Part shown: piece after piece, positions 20,017-31,635 of the stretch
Numbering within the stretch: position 1 is the stretch's first letter
Layout: each line of letters starts with the position of its first letter
DNA from: Myxococcales bacterium
GTDB taxonomy: Bacteria; Myxococcota_A; Polyangia; Polyangiales; Polyangiaceae
Assembly: GCA_013297655.1 (NCBI GenBank)
Contig: JAAFHV010000093.1
Location: 1-32,046 of the forward strand
Reading direction: 5' to 3'
Length of the DNA stretch: 32,046 bases
Position numbers and translations under genes: made by a program
The notes under the pieces: generated by a model
Told to the model about the DNA's origin: nothing
What the model saw: the letters and a program-made list of their open reading frames with translations, nothing else
Databases searched by the model: none

Positions 20017-21648
20017 TCAAAAGAGCTTCCACCACTTCTTCTTCTCGGGCGCTCCCGGAGCCGGCGGTTCTACCGGCGCGGCAGGTGCGGGCGGTGTGAC
20101 CTGCGGGGGCGTGACCTGCGGCGGGGCCTGCACGGGGGCGGGCGTGCTCGCCGAGGCCGGATTTGCGGTGGAAGGGCCTGCCGCGGAAGGGCCGGGTGGT
20201 ACAGGCTTCTTGGGGCCTTTTCCGCCGCCTCCACCGCCACGCGGCGGAGGCCGATACCCATATTTGGCAGCGAGCGCGGCTACTTTGCCGAGGAGCGCGC
20301 GGCCCTTCGGCGGATCGACCATCGCGACGTACGAGGCGAACCCCTTTGCCGACGCGAACACGTCGGGCGAGGTGCCCCACGAGCGGCCTTCGGGGCCTTT
20401 GGTCTCGATCGCGTGGAGGAGCGCGCGAAACGCGCGGAGCCGCTCGCGCTCGATCGACGCCTTCTGATTCACGATCACGCCGGTGACGTCTTGTTGGCTG
20501 CCGCGGCGGAGGACGCGTGTCTTCTTGGGGTGCGGCGTAAAACCCTCTGCCAGCACGATGAACCGCGCCTGCGCGAGCATTTGCCCGGTGCGCTTCGAGG
20601 CCGCTTCGTCCTTCGTGGAGAAGGTGAGATCGTCGGCATAGCGCGAATACACGAATCCGAGCTTCTTCGCCGCGCCGTGGAGGCGGCGGTCGAGCCTGCG
20701 GCAAAGCACGTTCGTGACGGCGGGGCTGGTGGGCGCGCCTTGCGGCAGCTTGCGGGGGCCGTGCGCGACGTGGAACGTGCGGCCGTCGAGCTCCACCGCG
20801 AAGGTGTCCGGCTCACTGGCCACGAGCGCAAAGACCGAAGCGACGAAGTCGCCGTACCCGAGCGAGCGGAACATGCCCTTGATTCGCGGGAGGGCGATCG
20901 AAGGGAAAAAATCGAGCAGATCCATGTTCACGACCACGCGCGCGCCCACGTGCGGAGTGGCGTTGCTCACGATAGACCGGCCGGCGCGGAACCCGTGCGC
21001 CGCCTCGTGGACGGGGACCTTCTCGAGCACGTTCTCGAGGAGCCACCCTTGGAGCGACTTGAGGCGCGGCATCGGCGCCGAGATGGTGCGCACCCCGCCC
21101 GTTTTTTTGGGGATGTTGAATCGGCGATAGTGCGAAATCTTGGACGTGTTGCGGGCGTAGCTGAGAAAACGTAAATCGGGGATCGAGAGCCCCGCCGCGC
21201 GCGCGATTTCCTCTGCGGTGCGGAAGAGGGGCAATCCTTGGCGCGCGAGCTTGGTTTCGTCGCACGTGTGATCGGAGAGGCCGCCGGACACGCCGCGACC
21301 GAGGAACACGATGTCCTTGGTCTTCGCGACTTTCCACGCTTCGGCGCGGGCGACGCGCTCGCGCTCGCGGCGAACCTTGGTTTCGGCTTGTTTTGCGCGG
21401 GAAGCGGCGAGCCGCCGCTTCATGAGCTCTTTCTTGAGCGCCTCGATGTTGTGGAGACGTGACTGCTCGGTGCGGAGGGCGGCGAGCTCGCGTTCGATCT
21501 CGCCGCGCTCGCGGATCTCGTCACCCGGGTCGAGCGGCACGGTGCCGCGCGCGGGCCAAAACCCGAGGCGGATCATCTCTTCGAGCACCACCTCGTCTTT
21601 GGAGGAGGTGCGGATGCGGTCGTAGAGGGCTTGTCTGCGGTCGGACAT
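20017..21648 (-). CDS. Retron reverse transcriptase with long N-terminal extension and Pro-rich tail, 543 aa
   Basis: Both retron hallmarks are present: NATPH (NAxxH, 229-233) and DVTGVIVN (VTG, 388-390). Motif A is VNMDLLDFFPS with Asp243, motif B LPQGAPTSP (301-309), and the active site YADD (337-340). The first 165 residues form an extension with a charged coiled-coil-like helix (about 45-110), followed by IVFLGRGVSGGL. This layout resembles the large myxobacterial retron RTs such as that of Mx162 (from memory). After the thumb (to about 467) comes a tail of about 75 Pro/Ala/Gly-rich residues ending in EKKKWWKLF, an unusual addition. The ATG at 21648 lies ten bases downstream of the end of the a2 repeat. 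The RT would copy the adjacent msd RNA into msDNA. No toxin or effector domain is fused. Confidence 0.95.
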   Translation of the reverse strand: MSDRRQALYDRIRTSSKDEVVLEEMIRLGFWPARGTVPLDPGDEIRERGEIERELAALRTEQSRLHNIEALKKELMKRRLAASRAKQAETKVRRERERVARAEAWKVAKTKDIVFLGRGVSGGLSDHTCDETKLARQGLPLFRTAEEIARAAGLSIPDLRFLSYARNTSKISHYRRFNIPKKTGGVRTISAPMPRLKSLQGWLLENVLEKVPVHEAAHGFRAGRSIVSNATPHVGARVVVNMDLLDFFPSIALPRIKGMFRSLGYGDFVASVFALVASEPDTFAVELDGRTFHVAHGPRKLPQGAPTSPAVTNVLCRRLDRRLHGAAKKLGFVYSRYADDLTFSTKDEAASKRTGQMLAQARFIVLAEGFTPHPKKTRVLRRGSQQDVTGVIVNQKASIERERLRAFRALLHAIETKGPEGRSWGTSPDVFASAKGFASYVAMVDPPKGRALLGKVAALAAKYGYRPPPRGGGGGGKGPKKPVPPGPSAAGPSTANPASASTPAPVQAPPQVTPPQVTPPAPAAPVEPPAPGAPEKKKWWKLF

Positions 21649-21657
21649 GGTAACCGC

Positions 21658-21682
21658 TTCACGCGCGGCGGATTCGGGGGCC
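21658..21682 (-). repeat. Retron a2 inverted repeat
   Basis: On the plus strand this reads TTCACGCGCGGCGG, then ATTCGGGGGCC, the counterpart of a1. It ends nine bases before the RT ATG, so its last bases (GTGAAGCGG) lie in the ribosome binding region of the RT gene. Confidence 0.85.
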
Positions 21683-21720
21683 TTCGAAGATGTCTCGGGA
21701 CTGGCTCGCTCAACTCCAGC

Positions 21721-21790
21721 GGCCGTGCCTAGGTGGTGCTCGTTGAATATGTGGGATTGAACCCGGAACAGCACTACCTAGGCATCGGCC
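21721..21790 (-). other. msd hairpin of the retron
   Basis: Two arms, GGCCGATGCCTAGGTAGTGC(T) and AGCACCACCTAGGCACGGCC, pair over 19 of 20 positions with one bulged A and one A-C mismatch. The 29-nt loop includes a GGG/CCC mini-stem. Long imperfect stems of this kind are the core of msDNA. Confidence 0.8.
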
Positions 21791-21869
21791 GCACAGTCGA
21801 GAGCGGGCCAGTGATGCATGGAGGGCCAAGCTGCAAGGACGGCGAAACACCGACCAGATTGCAAGATGT

Positions 21870-21895
21870 GACCCCGAAAGCCGCCGCGCGTGAAA
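21870..21895 (-). repeat. Retron a1 inverted repeat
   Basis: Contains TTCACGCGCGGCGG followed by CTTTCGGGG. The first 14 bases are perfectly complementary to a2, and TTCGGGG pairs again after a one-base offset. It starts 33 bp after the SWIM gene stop codon. Confidence 0.85.
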
Positions 21896-21917
21896 CTCCT
21901 TTCTCCGTCGTGATGGA

Positions 21918-21941
21918 CCCCTATCGAATCAACGATAAGGG
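21918..21941 (-). promoter_or_regulatory. Hairpin spanning the SWIM gene stop codon, just upstream of the retron RNA
   Basis: CCCTTATCG and CGATAGGGG pair over nine positions (one T-G) around the six-base loop TTGATT, which contains the TGA stop of the SWIM gene. It is 23 bp upstream of a1. There is no T run. It could be a processing site or partial terminator separating the mRNA from the ncRNA, or chance. Confidence 0.4.
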
Positions 21942-23623
21942 CCTCTCGCGATGGACGACTCCTCTCGAGTGCTCGCCACGACCCTCGCGAATCGTGGCGC
22001 GCCCTCGAACAACCGTACCGCGAGCATATGCTCGCAGGGACCTTTATAAAGCTTATTTTGCTGGAAAAAATTGCACGTGCAGGTGGCCTCCGCGAGGCGC
22101 CCGTCCGCGTCGATCTGGAGCTCGGGGGTATAGGCGTGGCGGCCGTCTTTTACGGTGCCGGAGAGTATGGTCCGGGCGCCGGCTTGGCGGGTGGCGACGG
22201 TGACCGCGTTCGCGGCGAGGAACCGGTTCGCCTTTTCTTCGCGCTCGTTCGAGAAGCGGAGCTTGTCCATCGGTAGAGGGTCTTTTGCGAGCTCGCGGAC
22301 GCGGTAAACGCCCTTGTTCAAGTCGAACATCGCGCGCCCCGCTTGTGTCCACGCCCCGAGCGCACCGAGCACCGCCGGGCGCGGCAAATCCAGCTTCTTC
22401 GCGAGCGCGTCCACGTCGGAGAACCAGGTCTCTTTGAGGCCCTCGAACACGCGCCGCTTGGTGAAGTCGTCGGTCTCCACCCGCGGGGCGAGCAAGTCGA
22501 AATTGCCAGAGGTAGACCAGTCGTTGCGCGTCCACCCGGAGAGCCCGAGGGTGAACGACATATGGCCTAGATCGGCGACGTAAAACGACGGCAGCCCCTG
22601 CCCGAGGAGGTGCACGGTGAACGACTTCGCGATCGCGACGAGGCGCTCGAGGACGAGCAAACGGCGCCGCCCCCATACCCGAATTTCTTCGCGCTCTTTG
22701 CCCGTGTAGATGGACCGCGAGCACACGATCTCGAGGTTCCACGGCTCGAAAATAGCCTTCACCGGCTCGCCGGGCACGAGCACCCAGCGGAGCGCACGGG
22801 GGCCCACCTTTTCTTTTTTGCGCCGCAGCACGAAGCACAAATTGTGGATGTCCATCGGGTGGAGCACGAACGAGCGGGTGGGCAAGGTCATCGCCGAGCT
22901 CACCTGCAAGAAGCCTCGAACCCACGAGTCGGGCAGATCGATCTTCTTCTCCTCGAACGTCTCCTCGCCGGTGGTCTTCACCTCGAAGCCAGAAGGGTCT
23001 ACCTCGAAGCGGGTGGTCTTGTAGCTCCTGATTTTTTGGAACTCTTCGTAGAGGGGAGTCGAATAGTCGATGTTGGTGGTGCCGCAGGCGAAGGCGCCCA
23101 CGTTTTGGAACACGTCGAGGCTCGCGCCGAGGCGCCCGTAGGTGGACTCGTCGATGCTGAAGCACTCGAAGAACACCTCGTCCGGGTGCACGGTAATCAC
23201 CGGGTCGAGCACGATCCACGCGTCGCGATCGCTCGTGTAGAGCCAATCGAAGTAGTTTTGGCGTGCCTTGTAAAAGGGGGCCATGCGCGCCGCGCGCCTG
23301 CGGTTCGCGTCGGCGAGCTTCGTGGTGAGCTCTTGGATGCGTCGCGCGTTGCCTGCGCGTTGGCCCGCAAGCTCCACCATGTCGACGAGCTCTTGTTTCG
23401 CGACCCACTCTTTGTATGCCGTTTTGTCCTTCGGTTTGAAGCGGAGGTCCGAAACGACGATGTCGTGGAGGGCGCTGATGGCTTCGCGGAACGCGACCGC
23501 TTTTCCGAGCTCGCCGGAGAAGTAGGTGGGCTCGCGATTGGCGTCTGGCGTGAACGACATCGCCGTCTGGTCGACGCGATCGTCTACCCGCGAGGCGCGC
23601 TTGAAGGCGTATGAAAATTCCAT
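21929..23623 (-). CDS. SWIM zinc-finger protein, 564 aa
   Basis: The C-terminal part has the SWIM motif CxC...CxH: Cys515, Cys517, Cys530 and His532 (TCTCNFF and GPCEHMLA). SWIM fingers bind zinc and mediate nucleic-acid or protein contacts. Before it, LNKGVYRVRELAKDPLP and TVKDGRHAYTPELQIDADGRL are typical of the strands leading into a SWIM domain. The N-terminal 450 residues have a coiled-coil-like helix (about 75-115) and an unrecognised mixed alpha/beta domain. The ATG at 23623 is one base from the stop of the WGR-HEAT gene, with GGAGG ten bases upstream, so the two proteins are translationally coupled and probably act together. The YehI/YehQ group of enterobacteria pairs WGR and SWIM proteins in a similar way, from memory. 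Confidence 0.85.
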   Translation of the reverse strand: MEFSYAFKRASRVDDRVDQTAMSFTPDANREPTYFSGELGKAVAFREAISALHDIVVSDLRFKPKDKTAYKEWVAKQELVDMVELAGQRAGNARRIQELTTKLADANRRRAARMAPFYKARQNYFDWLYTSDRDAWIVLDPVITVHPDEVFFECFSIDESTYGRLGASLDVFQNVGAFACGTTNIDYSTPLYEEFQKIRSYKTTRFEVDPSGFEVKTTGEETFEEKKIDLPDSWVRGFLQVSSAMTLPTRSFVLHPMDIHNLCFVLRRKKEKVGPRALRWVLVPGEPVKAIFEPWNLEIVCSRSIYTGKEREEIRVWGRRRLLVLERLVAIAKSFTVHLLGQGLPSFYVADLGHMSFTLGLSGWTRNDWSTSGNFDLLAPRVETDDFTKRRVFEGLKETWFSDVDALAKKLDLPRPAVLGALGAWTQAGRAMFDLNKGVYRVRELAKDPLPMDKLRFSNEREEKANRFLAANAVTVATRQAGARTILSGTVKDGRHAYTPELQIDADGRLAEATCTCNFFQQNKLYKGPCEHMLAVRLFEGAPRFARVVASTREESSIARGPYR

Positions 23624-23624
23624 G

Positions 23625-26600
23625 TCAGGCCGTCCCTCCGGCGCGCGCGGACGGACCGGACGTGCGCGTCACGGTCGGCGGATCGAGGAAACGAATCGGG
23701 AGCGGCACCGACGGGTGGGCCTTGCCGATCGCGACCATCGTCTCGATCGCGAGGCCTCCGTCTTCGACCGCGATGGTGGCGGAGAGCCGGTGCAAAATGG
23801 CGATCACCACCTTGGCCGCCTCTGCGTCGCGGAGCCCTTCTTTGCGCAAGAACGCGAGCACACGCGACTTGGCGACGCGCCCTTGGTTCACCCGCGAGAG
23901 CACGCTCGTGAAATAAGGCACCAGCGACTCGAGACGGGAGAGATCCGCGCTCGCGAAGCGCTCCAAATAGTTCGTCGCGAAGAGCTGCACCGAACGCTGC
24001 GGGTGCTCCGAGAGGCGTAGGAGCAGCACTGGACCGTCTTCGTCTTTGAACGCGCGCGAGGCGAGCTCGCGACCGAACGCTTGCACGTCTTCCTTCACGC
24101 TGTCGATGATGGAGACGAGCACGCTCGCGGTGAAGAGATCGGGCGAAAGGCTACGAAAATAGGCGAATGCACGCGCGCGGGTGTCGGCCCAGGTGGCGTC
24201 GCAGAGGCGCGCGGCGGCGGGGAGATCGGCTTCGACGCGCGTCTTGTCGCTCTCGAACATGGTCCACGCCGCTTGGCGAACCGAGAGAATGGCGTGGCTG
24301 CCGAGCTCCACGATCTCGGGGATCTCGAGCTCGCTCGCCGGCACCCGCGCGAGCAAGATGCCACCCAGCTCCTGCGCGTGCTGCGAGCCGGAGCGAAGGA
24401 GCTTCCACACCGTGTCGCGGGACAGCTCGGTGATCACGTCGGCGAGATCGTCGCGAAGGACGGAGAGCACGTGGGTGGGCACGCCCTCGGCGAGCTTTCG
24501 TCGCAGGAGCGCTTCGACCAGGCCCTCGGCGATCGCGATCCCTATTTCGCGATGTGCACGTGCGACACGACCCACGAGCGGCCTCGCCGCGATGCGAAGA
24601 TCGGTGTTCTTGTCCGACGAGAGGTGCACCAGGATCTTGAAATTCAGCGCGATCGCGTCGTCGTGCATCTCCGCGAGGAGGCGCATGCCCACCGCGCGCA
24701 CGTTGGGGAAAGGCGACTTGAGGACCGAGAGCACGATGTCGACCGGCACGAGCCCGGAGCGCGAATCGAGGCGCGACAAAAGCTCGGCCCCTATTTCTTG
24801 CACTCCCGCGAGCGGGTGAGACAGCAAATCACGGAGCGCTGCCGGGCCCGCGCTCGCCAAATGATGACCGAGCGCCGCGCTCACCGTGCGCGCGACGTCG
24901 AGGGCAATCTCCGCGCTCGTCGCGTCGTCCGGCAACGCCATCACGAGGGCGATCACGCGCCCCACGAGCGCCGCGCCCACCTCCGGTGAGAGCGCGAGCC
25001 CACGAACCCACGTGTGCGCGAACGCACGCGCGGCGGCGTGGCGCGCGGTCACGAGGCCGGCGAGAAATGCGGTATCCGCGGAGAGCTCCGCGCGCCGCTC
25101 GTCCATCCACGAAAACGCCTGCGTTCGCCCGGGCTCGTGCGCCGACTCGGCGAGGGCGACGAGCACACGAGGGCTCGCGGGGCTCTGCGCATAACGACCG
25201 CGAACGATCGTGAACCCGAGGCGCGCGGTAGGGGCATAGGGCCTCCCGAGCACGAGCACGATGTCGTCGTCGTCGAGGTTCGCGAGGAACGCGGGACACG
25301 CCTCCAGCGCCTTCGCGGCGAACTCGTGGACCGGCGCACAAGCGCTCTCGGCGACGAGCTGCATGAGCCCCTCCGGTCGCGCCTCCCACAAGGTGGGAAA
25401 AGCCTCTTCGCGCACCGGCGGAGGAGGGGACCCGGGCCGATATCCCCCTTTGAGTCGGAACGCGACCGTGTTGCGCCGAAGCTCGTAGCGGGGGCTATTC
25501 GCATAGAGCAGGTGGTTCAGCGTGCGGTACTTGGCATACGCATCGTAGCGCGGGCGCACGGCCTCGGCGTCGGCGTCGGAGTACGACAAAAGGGTGCCCA
25601 CCGCGAGCGGCACGAAGTCGGCCTCGCCTGCCTCGCCGAGCCTACGCAGGGTGCGCCATACGCGACGACGGAGAAACTCGCGCGTCGCCGAGCCGTAGGT
25701 CTTTCGCCGGGTCTCGTAGGAATAGGGGTTCGCGCGTGTGGTCTCGAATTTGTGCACGAACACACCGAAGACGCGCGGATCGTTGCGGTACTCGGCGGCC
25801 TTGAAAATATGGCGTAGCCAGAAGAAATACGGCGCTTCCAGCTTCGCGTCGGCGAGCTCTTTCAGGAACGCGGGGCGCACGATTTCGTCGTTGACGAGGT
25901 AGACGAGGTCCATCACCGCGAACGCCTCCGGCGTGGTCGCGAGGTGGGCACGGAGCGCCGCGCCGAAGGCCTCTTCGCCGGCGGCGTATCCCGTCTTCAG
26001 CGTGGTGGGCAACGTGGCGAGGATGTCTTTGCCGAACTCGGCGCGCATCTCGGGATCGCTCAAACGAAGGAGCGCTTCGGTCGCGATGCGCTGCACGTGG
26101 CCCGGTTGTTTCGGGTCGCTCCGGAGGCGCGCGAGCGTCGGGATCGAGGCTTCCGTGCCGAGGCGCCCGAGGGCGTGGCAAATGGAATAGTTGCGAATGC
26201 CCTTGCCGCCGCCCTCTGCGTCTACGCTGGTGGCGGTGTCGACGAGGGCGAGGAGGGGTGCCTCTGCTTCGCGGATCCGAAGCTCGCCCGCGCGCCAAAT
26301 GGCACGTTCGAGGGGCCAGGTGCGGTCTGCCCCTTGTCGACGGAACCAGCGGCGCTCGGTGCCACTCTGCGCGAGGCGCTCGAGGACGATGCGCTTCCGT
26401 TCGTCGTCGCGTTGGGGGTTCGGCGCGCGTGCGCCCGTTGCAGCGACGCCGGCGGCGCGAGCCACGGGAGGAGCGGCGGCTTTGGCGCGCGCGGCGGCGG
26501 CCTCTTCCTCGCGGACATACCCCTGTTCGATCTTCGATTGAACGAGCTTCTGAAAGACCTTGTCGGCCTCGGCGCGTGACACGGGGGCGACGGTCTTCGA

Positions 26601-26744
26601 GCCGTCTTTGAGGGCCGCCCCCTTCTTGCCATATCGAAAATTGACGACGAATTTCCCGCTCCCGACCTCACAAAGGTCGACCTCGTAGACCTTCTCGCTC
26701 TTGCCCTCGACGAACGCGAGGATGGTCTGGGTGATGAGCTTCAT
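23625..26744 (-). CDS. WGR-domain and HEAT-repeat protein, 1039 aa
   Basis: Residues 1-80 form a WGR domain (KVYEVDLCEVGSGKFVVNFRYGKKGAAL, ending QSKIEQGYV), but the canonical W-G-R core is degenerate (FRYGKKG, 36-42). After an Ala-rich linker, the rest is helical with many HEAT-like units: LRIREAEAPLLALVD, NYSICHALGRLGTEASIPTLARLRSD, ALRDLLSHPLAGVQEIGAELLSRL, LSVLKSPFPNVRAVGMRLLAEM. WGR domains in PARPs contact DNA ends and neighbouring domains. The ATG at 26744 is chosen because AAAGGAAG lies just upstream and because the WGR fold begins there; a GTG at 26768 is less likely. The start overlaps the TGA of a 19-codon micro-ORF by four bases. It is large, like MolR/YehI-type proteins. Confidence 0.85.
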   Translation of the reverse strand: MKLITQTILAFVEGKSEKVYEVDLCEVGSGKFVVNFRYGKKGAALKDGSKTVAPVSRAEADKVFQKLVQSKIEQGYVREEEAAAARAKAAAPPVARAAGVAATGARAPNPQRDDERKRIVLERLAQSGTERRWFRRQGADRTWPLERAIWRAGELRIREAEAPLLALVDTATSVDAEGGGKGIRNYSICHALGRLGTEASIPTLARLRSDPKQPGHVQRIATEALLRLSDPEMRAEFGKDILATLPTTLKTGYAAGEEAFGAALRAHLATTPEAFAVMDLVYLVNDEIVRPAFLKELADAKLEAPYFFWLRHIFKAAEYRNDPRVFGVFVHKFETTRANPYSYETRRKTYGSATREFLRRRVWRTLRRLGEAGEADFVPLAVGTLLSYSDADAEAVRPRYDAYAKYRTLNHLLYANSPRYELRRNTVAFRLKGGYRPGSPPPPVREEAFPTLWEARPEGLMQLVAESACAPVHEFAAKALEACPAFLANLDDDDIVLVLGRPYAPTARLGFTIVRGRYAQSPASPRVLVALAESAHEPGRTQAFSWMDERRAELSADTAFLAGLVTARHAAARAFAHTWVRGLALSPEVGAALVGRVIALVMALPDDATSAEIALDVARTVSAALGHHLASAGPAALRDLLSHPLAGVQEIGAELLSRLDSRSGLVPVDIVLSVLKSPFPNVRAVGMRLLAEMHDDAIALNFKILVHLSSDKNTDLRIAARPLVGRVARAHREIGIAIAEGLVEALLRRKLAEGVPTHVLSVLRDDLADVITELSRDTVWKLLRSGSQHAQELGGILLARVPASELEIPEIVELGSHAILSVRQAAWTMFESDKTRVEADLPAAARLCDATWADTRARAFAYFRSLSPDLFTASVLVSIIDSVKEDVQAFGRELASRAFKDEDGPVLLLRLSEHPQRSVQLFATNYLERFASADLSRLESLVPYFTSVLSRVNQGRVAKSRVLAFLRKEGLRDAEAAKVVIAILHRLSATIAVEDGGLAIETMVAIGKAHPSVPLPIRFLDPPTVTRTSGPSARAGGTA

Positions 26745-26800
26745 GGCTTCCTTTGGCGCCACGGACAAGGCACTCGCCGTCGGCTCGTTCGCATGTTCAT
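26741..26800 (-). CDS. Micro-ORF 2, 19 aa, overlapping the WGR-HEAT start
   Basis: ATG at 26800, preceded by CAGGAAGCC, a good ribosome binding site. The product contains RTSRRRVPCPWRQ and ends in KP. Its TGA (26743-26741) overlaps the ATG of the WGR-HEAT gene (ATGA). It arises from the second copy of a 48-bp repeat. It may be a leader peptide for coupling, or a by-product of duplicated intergenic DNA. Confidence 0.45.
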   Translation of the reverse strand: MNMRTSRRRVPCPWRQRKP

Positions 26801-26875: not shown

Positions 26876-28297
26876 TCAGGTCACGAGGCGGCGAATTCCA
26901 CCGTGGGCGCGGTAGAAGTCGCCACGGGCGGCCTCGCGGACCTCGTCGACCACGTATTTGGCGCCCTCGTGGCGGAGATCTTTCGGAAACTGCACGAACC
27001 ACTTCTTGTTGTAGCCAGACGACACCACACGAACGCGGAGCTGGGAGCCGTCTTTGAACACCTCGACGACCACGCCGTCGGCGGAGTCGACCGTGGTCTC
27101 CACTTCGGCGCTCACCTCGGCGGCGGCGGCCTTGGGGGTCGCGATGGTCTTCGCTTTGACCACTTCGCCCTGCTCGGCGGCCTTGATCGCGGCCTCGCTC
27201 GCGTCGAGCTGGGCGAGCGTGCCATCGGTCGTCACGATGTAGAGCTTGCCGCCGAAGAACTGCATCGAGAGCGCGGAGCCGCAGCCGGTGCCGAGCTTCC
27301 AGAGGCGCTTACCCTCTTCGTCGAAGCAATAGATCGACGAGCTGTTGTCGGCGGCGAAGACGTATTTTCCGTCCTCCGCGGCGGCACAGGAGAGCACCGA
27401 GGCGTCGCAGGTGAACACCTTGAGCGGCTCGCCGCGCTTCGAGAACTTATGCACCTTGTTGCGGTTCGTCGCCGCGAAGACGCACGACTCTTCTTGCCAG
27501 CCGAAGAGCACGGAGCCCTCGGTCTTGGCGGACCACATTTCGCTGCCGTCTTCCCAGTCGTACATGGTGACGCCGTCGCTGTGGCCGTGGAAAACACCGA
27601 GCTCGTCGCAGCGGATCATCCAGCCGCTCGTGCCTTTGGATTTTTTGCGCCACTGCGATTCGTCTTCATGGTTCACGATGACCACGTTGCCGTCGGCGTC
27701 CGACACGCCGAGCACGCCGTCTTTGATGTCGATCCAGTAGATGTCGGTGTCGTCCGAGATCTCGTACGCGACGCGGGGGGCTTTGCTTCCCAGGTCGTAC
27801 ACCTTGCCGTCGTCGCAGCCGGCGTAGAGCCAGTCGTCGTCGGCGACGATGCACTTCACTCCCTCGGGGAGCTTGAACTGAGCGAGCACCGCGCCGTCGT
27901 GGCCGAGCGAGTAGATCGCGCCCGATTGGTTGCCGACCCAAGCGCGGGCCTCGTCTACGAAGATGCCGAAGGCGCCATCTTTGCCAGACGAGAATTTCCA
28001 CACGATCGGCGCCTGTTTCGCGGTCGACTTCGTGCTGGTGACCTCGCGGCGGGTGACCGTGCGCTTCTTGCGCTCGCCGATGACGGCCGCGGCGTAACCC
28101 TTCTTCGTCTTCTCGGCGATCTTCTTCTGCGCCTCGGCGCGCGCCTTCTCGGGGGAGGCGCACTCCGTCACTTTGGTTTGCCCGTTGTCGCCAATGCGGC
28201 CGTAGCGAATCGTGAGCGTTTTACCGTCGACGATGACCTCGTAAAACTTGTGGGACCCGGAATCTTCCGACAGCTCGAGGTACGTGCGCTCGCTCAT
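26876..28297 (-). CDS. WGR-domain and beta-propeller protein, 473 aa
   Basis: The WGR domain is canonical: YLELSEDSGSHKFYEVIVDGKTLTIRYGRIGDNGQ, with YGRIG at 32-36, ending KKIAEKTKKGYAAAVIG. A basic linker follows (ERKKRTVTRREV). Residues about 90-380 form a PQQ-like propeller: VWKFSSGKDGAFGIFVDEARAWVGNQSGAIYSLG, DDDWLYAGCDDGKVYDLG, DGVLGVSDADGNVVIVN, KYVFAADNSSSIYCFDEEGKRLWKLG. A final domain (about 405-473) contains GYNKKWFVQFPKDLRHEGAKYVVDEV. The ATG at 28297 fits the domain start; an upstream ATG at 28318 abuts GGAGG too closely. There is a 199-bp gap to the ligase gene and a micro-ORF chain downstream. It probably senses nucleic acid or a partner rather than being an enzyme. Confidence 0.88.
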   Translation of the reverse strand: MSERTYLELSEDSGSHKFYEVIVDGKTLTIRYGRIGDNGQTKVTECASPEKARAEAQKKIAEKTKKGYAAAVIGERKKRTVTRREVTSTKSTAKQAPIVWKFSSGKDGAFGIFVDEARAWVGNQSGAIYSLGHDGAVLAQFKLPEGVKCIVADDDWLYAGCDDGKVYDLGSKAPRVAYEISDDTDIYWIDIKDGVLGVSDADGNVVIVNHEDESQWRKKSKGTSGWMIRCDELGVFHGHSDGVTMYDWEDGSEMWSAKTEGSVLFGWQEESCVFAATNRNKVHKFSKRGEPLKVFTCDASVLSCAAAEDGKYVFAADNSSSIYCFDEEGKRLWKLGTGCGSALSMQFFGGKLYIVTTDGTLAQLDASEAAIKAAEQGEVVKAKTIATPKAAAAEVSAEVETTVDSADGVVVEVFKDGSQLRVRVVSSGYNKKWFVQFPKDLRHEGAKYVVDEVREAARGDFYRAHGGIRRLVT

Positions 28298-28496
28298 GGC
28301 CGTCGAGGCTACGCGCATCCTCCTCCATCACGGAAGCCCCTCCGCCGAGCGCGGCGATTTTTTTGGCGAGGCATGAACGCGCAGGCGAACGTGCCATGTA
28401 GGTCCATGGAGGATAACCCTCAGTCCGCGCGCCGAGAAATGCCGGCCATGGCGCGATTGACGCAGGGCATCCATCCCGATTCACACACGCGCGTCG

Positions 28497-30008
28497 TCAG
28501 GAGTCGTCCACCTCGGTGTAGCCCGCATCGAGCTTCTCGCGGACCTTACGGTCGGCGTCGCGCCAGGCCGCGACGACGGACGGGAAGCGGCTCTCCGAGG
28601 TCTCCAGGCCTCCGCCGGTGAGCACGCGCCTTACGCGGTTCACCTTACCATCGAGGGAAATTTCCCACGAAACGCCGTCTCGTTCGAAGCGCCGAAAGAG
28701 CGGACCAGCCTCTTCCACCGGAGCGGCCGCTGGCTCGGGCCGTGTGTTCGTGCTCGCGTGCGCGGTCGTTCTCGAGGCGCGCGGAGCGGAAGCGGCGGGA
28801 GGAGCAGCGGGGGCCGCGTTCGCGCGCGGCTCGGTCGCGCGACGAGGGCGGCTCGTGAAGGTCACGTCGTCGCGAATACCCACGTAGCTGGGGAAGCGCG
28901 GTACCCCGTCGTTCGAGAGCTCCTGATAACGATACGTGATGATGCTGCCGATCGGAGGAGGGTTGTTGCGCTCTTCGTCCGACAGGCCAGTACCGGCGGA
29001 GAACCGAGTGCCATCTTCCATTTCGCATTCGAGCGCGCCGAGGCGCCCCTTGTGCTTCCCCGCGCCGGGCAAATGGCCCACCACGCGCGCCTCCGCGTCG
29101 AAGAAGCTCTTCACCTTGAGGAGCGTGTGCGAGCGCCCCGATTCGTAGAGTGAGGCCGGGCGCCGCATCATGAGGCCTTCGCCACCGAGGGCCTCCACCC
29201 GCGCGAGCTCGGCGCGGAGCGAGTCGACGTTCTCGCAGCGCGCCTGTTCGTGCGCGCTCACGTGATCGACCGCGAGCTCGGCGACGAGCCGTTGGAGCTC
29301 GGTCTGGCGTGCCTCGAACGGCTCGCGGAGGGCGGGCAGATCGAAGAGCACGTATTTCACCTCGCGCCACGCGTCGCTGCGGTCTTGGCGCCTTACGGTG
29401 CTCACCGTCTTTTGGAAGTTCTTGCGCCCGCCCCAGAGCTCGCCGTCCATCGGGTGGGAGGGCAGCTTCTCGATGAACCAGTCGGGGGCGAAGAACTCGT
29501 TGCCGAGGCGGGAAAGAAGCCTCGTTCCGTCCCAATAGGCGCGTACGCCGTCGAGCTTTTCGCTCATCCACCACGACGTCAAATCGGTCACGTTGTCCCA
29601 CGGGTGGGCGAGGAGAACGGGGGGAGCGACGCCGCTCGCGGTCGCCGAGCCGCCAGTGCGTGTGGCCGCTGCCGCTCGCGCGCGTGTGTTCGAGGTGCCC
29701 ACCCGGTGCGTCTCCGCCGCGTCGCCCCTGAGCTTTCGCAGGTGTTTGCACGTGCGGTTGTCGATCGCGCCGCCCGCATTTCTCCACGCGGGGCAGGAGC
29801 ACGAGTACACGCCGCCCACGTTCTTGAGCACGTACGGATCGCGCCCCGAGCCCTGCATGGTGGTGCTCTCGCCGTCGGCGAGATCGGCGAGGGCGGCGGG
29901 GCCCGGATCAGGAGCCGAGGCGGCTTCGGTCGAGGTCGCGCGCGCGGCTTCGGGGGGCGGCGGGGCCGGCTCGGGTGCGGTCTTCCACCAGGGTTTTTCG
30001 CGTGCCAT
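28497..30008 (-). CDS. ATP-dependent DNA ligase with N-terminal SWIM and C-terminal WGR-like domains, 503 aa
   Basis: The core (about 130-390) has all nucleotidyltransferase motifs: SEKLDGVRAYW (catalytic Lys151), LLSRLGNEF, MDGELWGGRKNFQ (III), KYVLFDLP (IIIa), GEGLMMRRP (IV), LLKVKSF (V). An OB-like part follows (ARVVGHLPGAGKHKGRLGALE, GTGLSDEERNNP). This core is close to the LigE type, which is normally a small periplasmic enzyme. Here it has a Pro-rich N-terminus (REKPWWKTAPEPAPPPP) and a SWIM finger (Cys70, Cys72, Cys87, His89) instead of a signal peptide. The C-terminus, after a Pro/Ala linker, looks like a degenerate WGR domain (FRRFERDGVSWEISLDGK, ADRKVREKLDAGYTEV). It should seal nicked DNA in the cytoplasm. 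It is the first gene after a strong terminator, so likely the first of the cluster. Confidence 0.92.
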   Translation of the reverse strand: MAREKPWWKTAPEPAPPPPEAARATSTEAASAPDPGPAALADLADGESTTMQGSGRDPYVLKNVGGVYSCSCPAWRNAGGAIDNRTCKHLRKLRGDAAETHRVGTSNTRARAAAATRTGGSATASGVAPPVLLAHPWDNVTDLTSWWMSEKLDGVRAYWDGTRLLSRLGNEFFAPDWFIEKLPSHPMDGELWGGRKNFQKTVSTVRRQDRSDAWREVKYVLFDLPALREPFEARQTELQRLVAELAVDHVSAHEQARCENVDSLRAELARVEALGGEGLMMRRPASLYESGRSHTLLKVKSFFDAEARVVGHLPGAGKHKGRLGALECEMEDGTRFSAGTGLSDEERNNPPPIGSIITYRYQELSNDGVPRFPSYVGIRDDVTFTSRPRRATEPRANAAPAAPPAASAPRASRTTAHASTNTRPEPAAAPVEEAGPLFRRFERDGVSWEISLDGKVNRVRRVLTGGGLETSESRFPSVVAAWRDADRKVREKLDAGYTEVDDS

Positions 30009-30142: not shown

Positions 30143-31450
30143 TCACTTCGGGGCGGCGATGCGGCCGGCGAAGAGGACCGTGTTGGTGGGGATATCGCGA
30201 ATGAAGACCATGAACGGGCGGTTCACCTCGAACACCACCGGCTCCTCCGGGATCGACGCGGTTCCGGCCATGATGACCGCGGTCGCGGCGGCGGCCTCGG
30301 TGCCCTTCTCGTCGACCCGAACGAACGCCTTGTGGAGCACGTCGGAGATGAAGAGGCGCTCGGCCTCGGGCTTCACCATGCCCGAGAAATCCGCGTCTTT
30401 CGCCGAGAACGGCGCGCTCATTCCGAGCGCCTCGAGCGGCTTACGAAGCGAGATCGCCTCCCCCGCGATCGAGAACTTGGGCAAGCTGATGCGCACGCGC
30501 TTTTCGGTCGTGAGGCCCGCCATCGTCGAGAGCAGCGCCTTGCCGTCGAACGCGGTCTCGAAGGTTTTCAGACCTTGGCGCGGGAGCACCACGACCATCG
30601 ACACCTTGTTTCCTTGATACGGCATCTCCACGACTTGCGCGGTCTCGGTGTCCGCGTACTTCATTGCCGCGGTCTGGTTCATCGTCGGCACGTTCGACTT
30701 CGAGCCGTCGAGGTTCGTGAACGACGCGTCGCGGGTCTGGTCCTTGTCGAAGGGGATGGCCCAGTCGGCGTTGAAATAAACGGCGTTCACGAGGACCATG
30801 CGCGTCGCTTCGTTGAGCGAGCCGGGTCCGAGGAGGTTCTGGATTTTCTGCTCGGTCTGCTTCTCGACCCAGGCGTTGATTTTGGTGCGCTCGGCGTCGG
30901 CTTGGTTCTTGAAGTCGGCGAGCTGCACACCGGCGCCGTAGTTCGTCGCGATGGTGTCGAGGTAGGGGGCCTCGAAGGGCACTCCTTTTTGGCCAAAGGT
31001 GGTGTTCACGGAGCGAAGGGTGAACGGCTTGCCGTCGCTCGAGGCGTCGGAGGCGCGCGAGGTGAGGGCGAGGTCGAGGGCGTTCATCGCGACGTGCAGG
31101 CGGGCCTCGGGCAGCTTGAAGGAGAGCCCAGCCGCCATCTCGGTCGCGGTCGTGCCGCGCGCGCCGGCGTAGGTCATCGAGAGCGCGCTCACCACGCTGA
31201 GCGGCGAGAAGAACGCGTTGCCTTCGCCCTTCGCCGCGGTCTGCCCGTAGAGGCGCATGGTCAGCTCGGCGTTGCCTTCCGCGAGGCTCGCCATCTCCGC
31301 CGGGGTCGCGTTCGGTGCGGTGTCCCGCGAGAGGCTCGACTTGGCCTGCTCGAACGACGGGGCATCCTCCGTAGTCGTGTCCGCCGCACAGCCGGCAGCG
31401 AGAAGTCCGAGGGTCATGGAGAGGCCAAGCGAGAGGTGAAGAGCGCGCAT
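30143..31450 (-). CDS. Serpin lipoprotein (serine protease inhibitor), 435 aa
   Basis: The signal MRALHLSLGLSMTLGLLAAGC has a lipobox (LAAGC). The ATG at 31450 is preceded by AAAGGA nine bases upstream. The serpin fold is recognisable throughout: NAFFSPLSVVSALSMTYAGARGTTATEM, VNTTFGQKGVPFEAPYLDTI, LVNAVYFNADWAIPFD, VVVLPRQGLKTFE, ISLPKFSIAGEAISLRKPLEALGM, and the C-terminal EVNRPFMVFIRDIPTNTVLFAGRI. The hinge of the reactive loop is inhibitory in type (EKGTEAAAAT). Counting from it places P1 at Thr or Ala (MAGTAS), which would favour elastase- or papain-like targets rather than trypsin-like ones. It likely sits in the outer membrane or periplasm. A terminator follows. Confidence 0.93.
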   Translation of the reverse strand: MRALHLSLGLSMTLGLLAAGCAADTTTEDAPSFEQAKSSLSRDTAPNATPAEMASLAEGNAELTMRLYGQTAAKGEGNAFFSPLSVVSALSMTYAGARGTTATEMAAGLSFKLPEARLHVAMNALDLALTSRASDASSDGKPFTLRSVNTTFGQKGVPFEAPYLDTIATNYGAGVQLADFKNQADAERTKINAWVEKQTEQKIQNLLGPGSLNEATRMVLVNAVYFNADWAIPFDKDQTRDASFTNLDGSKSNVPTMNQTAAMKYADTETAQVVEMPYQGNKVSMVVVLPRQGLKTFETAFDGKALLSTMAGLTTEKRVRISLPKFSIAGEAISLRKPLEALGMSAPFSAKDADFSGMVKPEAERLFISDVLHKAFVRVDEKGTEAAAATAVIMAGTASIPEEPVVFEVNRPFMVFIRDIPTNTVLFAGRIAAPK

Positions 31451-31635
31451 CGGAGGAGATCCTTTCGGGTTAGTGCCAATCCGTATTGCGCGATCCGTGC
31501 CATGAGCGATTTGGGGAAAAAGTTGGCAAATATGGGGTTTGCGAGCGGGTTGTGGCGCAGTCGTGGCACAGTTGGTTGCGGTGGCGCGCTTTGGCGCAGG
31601 TGCCACGTCGTGGCAGAGGCGAGACCAACCCGAGT
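31451..31635. other. Upstream region of the serpin gene
   Basis: About 185 bp before the serpin start with no convincing ORF. It is less GC-rich near 31505-31545 (AAAAAGTTGGCAAATATGGG), where the serpin promoter may lie. I found no clear -35/-10 pair. Confidence 0.35.

Follow-up and report, generated by a model that had tools for sequence, protein, structure and literature searches.

A predicted SWIM-LigE-WGR DNA ligase beside a type XIII retron in a Myxococcales genome

The locus described here raises the question of why a DNA ligase with a LigE-like core should be fused to a SWIM finger and a WGR-like domain, and be encoded next to further WGR and SWIM proteins. The gene lies within a window of 32,046 nucleotides, by which we mean the whole stretch of DNA that was analysed. 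The original prediction, made from this DNA without database searches, saw in it a LigE-like ligase, of a kind usually small and exported, that had been turned into a cytoplasmic fusion, with two additional domains that might direct it either to specific DNA ends or to the neighbouring WGR/SWIM proteins.

Domain organisation and relatives of the ligase

The predicted gene is real, and its strand, left unstated in the prediction, can be given. A 1512-bp open reading frame on the minus strand (28497..30008, with its ATG start at 30008) encodes a SWIM-LigE-WGR ATP-dependent DNA ligase of 503 aa, and contains both of the ligase motifs quoted for it. Profile and structure matches define a LigE-type catalytic core, made up of nucleotidyltransferase and OB domains, at about residues 121-381 (28866..29648, minus strand). 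The LigE-type NCBIfam model PRK09125 matches these residues with 344 bits (4e-103, cut-off 200 bits), and the closest solved structures are all LigE enzymes (4d05, 2e-68; 8u6x, 2e-54; 6gdr, 3e-52). The predicted structure of the ligase (mean pLDDT 85.8) has the same three entries as its top PDB matches, in agreement with the sequence search. Pfam finds DNA_ligase_A_M and DNA_ligase_OB_2 in the protein, and nothing else. The nucleophile K151, within SEKLDG, is accompanied by the core motifs DGEL, EGLM and LLKVK, and both K151 and the remaining catalytic motifs are unchanged in 38/38 aligned relatives. Nick-sealing activity is predicted for the window ligase from these intact motifs.

The absence of a signal peptide was also correctly foreseen. 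There is no hydrophobic leader: over the first 50 residues, hydropathy in 11-residue stretches peaks at 0.49, against 2.77 in an exported LigE control. The candidate reading as an exported enzyme was dropped on this ground, and the missing leader places the window ligase in a LigE-core group of its own rather than with classical LigE. The N-terminus carries a SWIM-type zinc finger segment, C70xC72...C87xH89, at about residues 43-100 (29709..29882, minus strand), which was delimited by family alignment and is modelled with a pLDDT of about 93. Phage and bacterial relatives have this segment in common, with 15 invariant columns across 11 family sequences. The proposed SWIM finger is thus borne out by a CxC...CxH motif (C70, C72, C87, H89) that is present and conserved in the family, though the Pfam SWIM model stays below threshold in the window ligase and gives borderline matches in relatives (E 0.034 in L127, the nearest relative, and 0.98 in L082).

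The C-terminal domain (residues 436-503; 28500..28703, minus strand) has a WGR fold without the W-G-R signature, as seen by profile-profile and fold comparison. Pfam gives no match for the C-terminal 68 residues of the window ligase, yet an hhalign comparison between a profile of five relatives' C-termini and canonical WGR domains gives a probability of 98%, and Pfam does match WGR in the C-terminus of L127 (E 0.039). Folded alone, the isolated domain is predicted with a pLDDT of 92.4. Its sole Foldseek match under 0.001 is 2ra8, a WGR protein, and VIA-align has WGR domains in each of its first six places (Z 11.5 to 8.2). Based on the hhalign probability and the fold matches, we dropped the possibility that the C-terminus is unrelated to WGR. 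Independent evidence comes from the Pfam, hhalign and fold results, and not from the scores of a local WGR profile, which was built partly on family members.

The WGR-like C-terminus of the original prediction is therefore upheld as a fold and fails at the signature, whose columns read RRVLTG in the alignment. The signature is likewise missing from L082, L084 and L088. Across the ligase family, [WYF]G[RK] is kept in 49/61 WGR domains and lost in 12/61. Since the signature residues are lost, the suggestion that the WGR domain targets the ligase to specific DNA ends is doubtful.

The fusion is not unique. Judged from sequence, SWIM-LigE proteins, often with WGR or BRCT domains, form a large group distinct from exported LigE, with hosts that include Myxococcota, Planctomycetota, Verrucomicrobiota and phages in a viral-contig scan and the best 80 of 118 loci from a genome scan. 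The genome scan used the SWIM segment as its seed and retained the best 80 of 118 loci, so the proportion of SWIM fusions in it should not be read as a frequency. Among 185 loci with a LigE-type ORF, including those of the viral and SWIM-seeded genome scans, there are 53 SWIM-LIG and 46 SWIM-LIG-WGR architectures, with rarer forms such as WGR-SWIM-LIG, BRCT-SWIM-LIG and one with five WGR domains. A sample that was not SWIM-seeded, comprising 25 LigE genes in 377 Myxococcota genomes, has SWIM in 20/25, WGR in 16/25 and BRCT in 4/25.

A tree of 115 cores places the exported LigE enzymes outside the SWIM-LigE rows. This is a quick tree with long outgroup branches; it takes in only 10 of the SWIM-less viral rows and omits 11 truncated loci, L301 (a duplicate of L146) and L025 (a near-copy of L007). 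Together with PRK09125 and the structure matches, it gives no grouping of the core with non-LigE ligases, and so agrees with the assignment first made. The many relatives that carry SWIM-LigE, and the separation on the tree, led us to abandon the one-off conversion of an exported LigE enzyme.

Several members of the group are of interest in their own right. On phage contigs, SWIM-LigE was found in 11/80 fetched viral-contig loci (L002-L008, L010, L025, L066 and L077) as well as in L320, and no WGR domain was found in any of these phage ligases. Neighbouring genes on these contigs gave a profile match to terminase (L066) and to phage nicotinamide phosphoribosyl transferase (L002). BRCT-SWIM-LigE fusions occur in Myxococcota (L301/L146, L306, L309 and L311; Pfam BRCT 1e-9 in L306), and an Obscuribacterales MAG has a single ORF in which five WGR domains come after SWIM-LigE (L154:9827-13495). 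In six planctomycete loci (L118, L156 and L158-L161) a same-strand neighbour family, exemplified by a 510-aa protein, lies beside the ligase. The ligase of L123, recorded as Comamonas sp. KCTC 72670, falls inside Myxococcaceae on the tree, and that genome is probably mislabelled. In L317 (G032) the SWIM-LigE frame is broken within the OB domain, possibly through a sequencing error or as a pseudogene.

The neighbouring type XIII retron

Retrons are reverse-transcriptase systems of a kind used against viruses, and are understood to consist of a reverse transcriptase (RT), a non-coding RNA (ncRNA) and a toxic effector. Downstream of the ligase, on the same minus strand, lie genes for a 480-aa WGR and beta-propeller (PQQ/BamB-like) protein (26876..28318; Pfam WGR 6e-19, PQQ_2 1e-10), a WGR-HEAT protein matching PADLOC WGR_XIII (23625..26768; 1032.7 bits), a SWIM protein matching SWIM_XIII (21929..23623; 780.1 bits, Pfam SWIM 4e-7) and then a 543-aa RT matching RT_XIII (20017..21648; 585.1 bits). 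A gap of 178 bp (28318 to 28497) separates the ligase from the WGR-propeller gene. By their PADLOC assignments, the ligase's WGR/SWIM neighbours are a type XIII retron (RT_XIII, SWIM_XIII and WGR_XIII). The original prediction was likely right to connect the ligase with them; their identity as a retron escaped it. PADLOC gives no match to a dedicated model for either the ligase or the WGR-propeller protein. The WGR-propeller protein is also found beside type XIII retrons that have no ligase (L204, L205), as a second optional accessory. Just upstream of the ligase, again on the minus strand, is a serpin gene (30143-31606; Pfam 4e-111).

The gap between SWIM and RT holds a retron ncRNA (msr-msd), recognised by structure (21649..21900, minus strand) and conserved over 15 loci (the window, L082, L084, L200-L205 and L207-L212). 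Inverted repeats mark its two ends, and it also contains an invariant stem-loop and a long hairpin in which the sequence varies but the pairing is kept. Compensatory changes are seen in 21/35 predicted pairs across the 15 loci, and the window copy has a predicted fold of -135 kcal/mol (z -9.3). Rfam gave no match anywhere in the window, this ncRNA included. From its structure and covariation, the ncRNA directly 5' of the RT is most likely msr-msd-like. This anatomy makes the ATG at 21648, which was taken from the alignment, the most likely RT start; the mechanical RT ORF extends to 21774, into the ncRNA.

Recurrence of the linkage and the role of the ligase

Besides the window, SWIM_XIII occurs at 74 places in the 377 Myxococcota genomes. 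Of their 74 neighbourhoods, several of which stop at contig ends, four contain the ligase (L202, L264, L270 and L206, which comes from the same record as L084). In total, seven loci place the ligase next to type XIII retron genes (the window, L082, L084, L088, L202, L264 and L270), and SWIM and RT are seen in six of these. The order in the window, L082 and L084 is ligase, WGR-propeller, WGR-HEAT, SWIM and RT. L088 has the first three genes of this order, ligase first, and its contig ends inside WGR-HEAT; a search of its genome gave no SWIM_XIII match, which counts against linkage there. In L202 the ligase comes last, after the WGR-propeller gene (HEAT, SWIM, RT, WGR-propeller, ligase). The abutting genes of L264 and L270, where RT_XIII was confirmed, run SWIM, RT, WGR and ligase, so that the ligase follows a WGR gene behind the RT.

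Random placement of the 25 Myxococcota LigE genes within their own genomes would be expected to put 0.049 of them within 12.5 kb of SWIM_XIII, and five are found that close. Because three of the five linked genomes (G085, G286 and G333) have the same genus code, we counted the three gene orders as independent, for a Poisson P of about 2e-5. Mapping the linked ligases onto the tree takes 4 changes, of which starred branches force at least 2. Linkage is nevertheless the exception, with 20/25 LigE genes not adjacent to SWIM_XIII. The association of the ligase with type XIII retrons is recurrent but optional, and most type XIII loci have no ligase. Seven linked loci in three gene orders, together with the excess of nearby LigE genes over expectation, suggest that these retrons probably have the DNA ligase as an optional accessory.

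A search of 392 planctomycete genomes (LigE in 14, SWIM_XIII in 23) found no operonic ligase-retron case. The only near pair, L113 in the centre genome, was not counted, as its ligase is encoded on the opposite strand and separated from the retron gene by other genes. At the level of whole genomes, SWIM_XIII occurs in 14/25 Myxococcota genomes with LigE and 44/352 others (9/20 LigE genomes once the adjacent cases are removed), and in planctomycetes, without the centre genome G377, in 6/13 LigE genomes and 16/378 others. We dropped this co-occurrence as proof of a link, since the counts are not corrected for genome size or kinship, and regard it as suggestive at most.

A serious but less probable rival explanation makes the ligase a DNA-repair enzyme in its own right, residing in a shared repair and defence island, so that its adjacency to the retron reflects hitch-hiking with no common function. 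The 20 non-adjacent Myxococcota LigE genes are consistent with this, as are the BRCT and canonical WGR fusions, which resemble generic end repair, and the 178-bp gap after the window ligase. The same can be said of L127, whose ligase stands alone, and whose genome has the same type of retron, with a WGR-propeller gene, on a different contig. Chance company is harder to reconcile with the recurrence of three gene orders, the abutting genes of L202, L264 and L270, and five LigE genes near SWIM_XIII where 0.05 would be expected. Moreover, the retron genes apart, few of the neighbour families in 96 SWIM-LigE loci recur beyond single lineages.

We tentatively prefer to see the window protein as a cytoplasmic, nick-sealing SWIM-LigE ligase that type XIII retrons have recruited, in several Myxococcota, as an optional accessory. 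Ligase and retron proteins have the same types of accessory domain, and the simplest reading of this is a nick sealer drawn to the DNA or complex that the retron proteins occupy. Through its SWIM and signature-less WGR domains, the ligase would reach the DNA or protein assembly at which the retron's SWIM and WGR proteins are located, and would there seal nicks or join breaks. Its simplest purpose would be to repair or limit damage around retron action, and the direction of benefit is a guess, with host protection, the set-point of the system or msDNA processing as candidates.

The shared SWIM and WGR domain types would also suit a catalytically idle ligase, adenylylated and able to bind DNA, that acts within the retron complex as a scaffold or sensor. 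We consider this very unlikely, given that the catalytic lysine and other motifs are invariant in all 38 aligned sequences.

The ligase could also act on the retron DNA itself, by circularising msDNA or by joining it to DNA ends in cell or phage DNA. This appears unlikely, even with a DNA-joining enzyme encoded alongside a system whose product is DNA with free ends. The [WYF]G[RK] motif is not kept in any of the six WGR domains found in retron-linked ligases, and is missing from 6/55 others (Fisher 2e-5, relatedness ignored), as if the linked domains were adapted to a different partner; the L202 ligase is cut by a contig end, which makes the absence of WGR there uninformative. However, L127 departs from the motif in the same way and is not adjacent to a retron, so the change may follow clade. 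Most type XIII loci manage without a ligase, and LigE enzymes favour nicks in duplex DNA. As the inferred function of the ligase, we favour nick sealing, for repair or self-protection, over a reaction that joins retron DNA. A retron equipped with a ligase, whose reverse-transcribed DNA would be joined to itself or to the DNA ends of an infected cell, is improbable. Were retron DNA joined by the SWIM-LigE-WGR protein, the retron product would be covalently installed DNA, and more than a sensor.

Comparison with known systems

The available text of PMC11953036 names 'retron type XIII' as a PADLOC call. The window cluster resembles this type in its RT, SWIM and WGR-HEAT proteins (585, 780 and 1033 bits) and in the ncRNA directly 5' of the RT, and differs from it by the addition of a DNA ligase and a WGR-propeller protein. 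The portions of PMC8565338, PMC12548924 and PMC7159879 available to us contain nothing on a ligase-retron system. Within the titles, abstract openings and text portions covered by our literature search, there was no report of retron XIII with WGR/SWIM or of a SWIM/WGR DNA ligase. The recurrence of a DNA-joining enzyme with one retron type suggests that sealing or joining DNA may belong to the working of that type.

The C-terminal domain is close to the WGR family (PF05406), with 2ra8 at Z 11.5 (rmsd 1.8 over 67 residues) and PARP1/2/3 at Z 8.2-8.8. It departs from these proteins in the W-G-R signature, which is missing in the window, L082, L084 and L088. The SWIM-LigE proteins of large phage contigs share the SWIM finger and LigE core of the window ligase, and lack its WGR domain.

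With LigE itself the window ligase has its core in common, at 44%, 39% and 37% identity to 4d05, 8u6x and 6gdr (over about 250-260 columns) and with all motifs. According to the available portion of PMC10799422, LigE has an N-terminal leader predicted for the periplasm and is restricted to proteobacteria. Compared with the enzyme as described there, the window ligase has no leader, carries SWIM and WGR domains, and belongs to a group that spans wider phyla. LigE-type ligases would therefore include, beyond the exported enzymes studied so far, a large and apparently cytoplasmic branch decorated with SWIM, WGR and BRCT domains.
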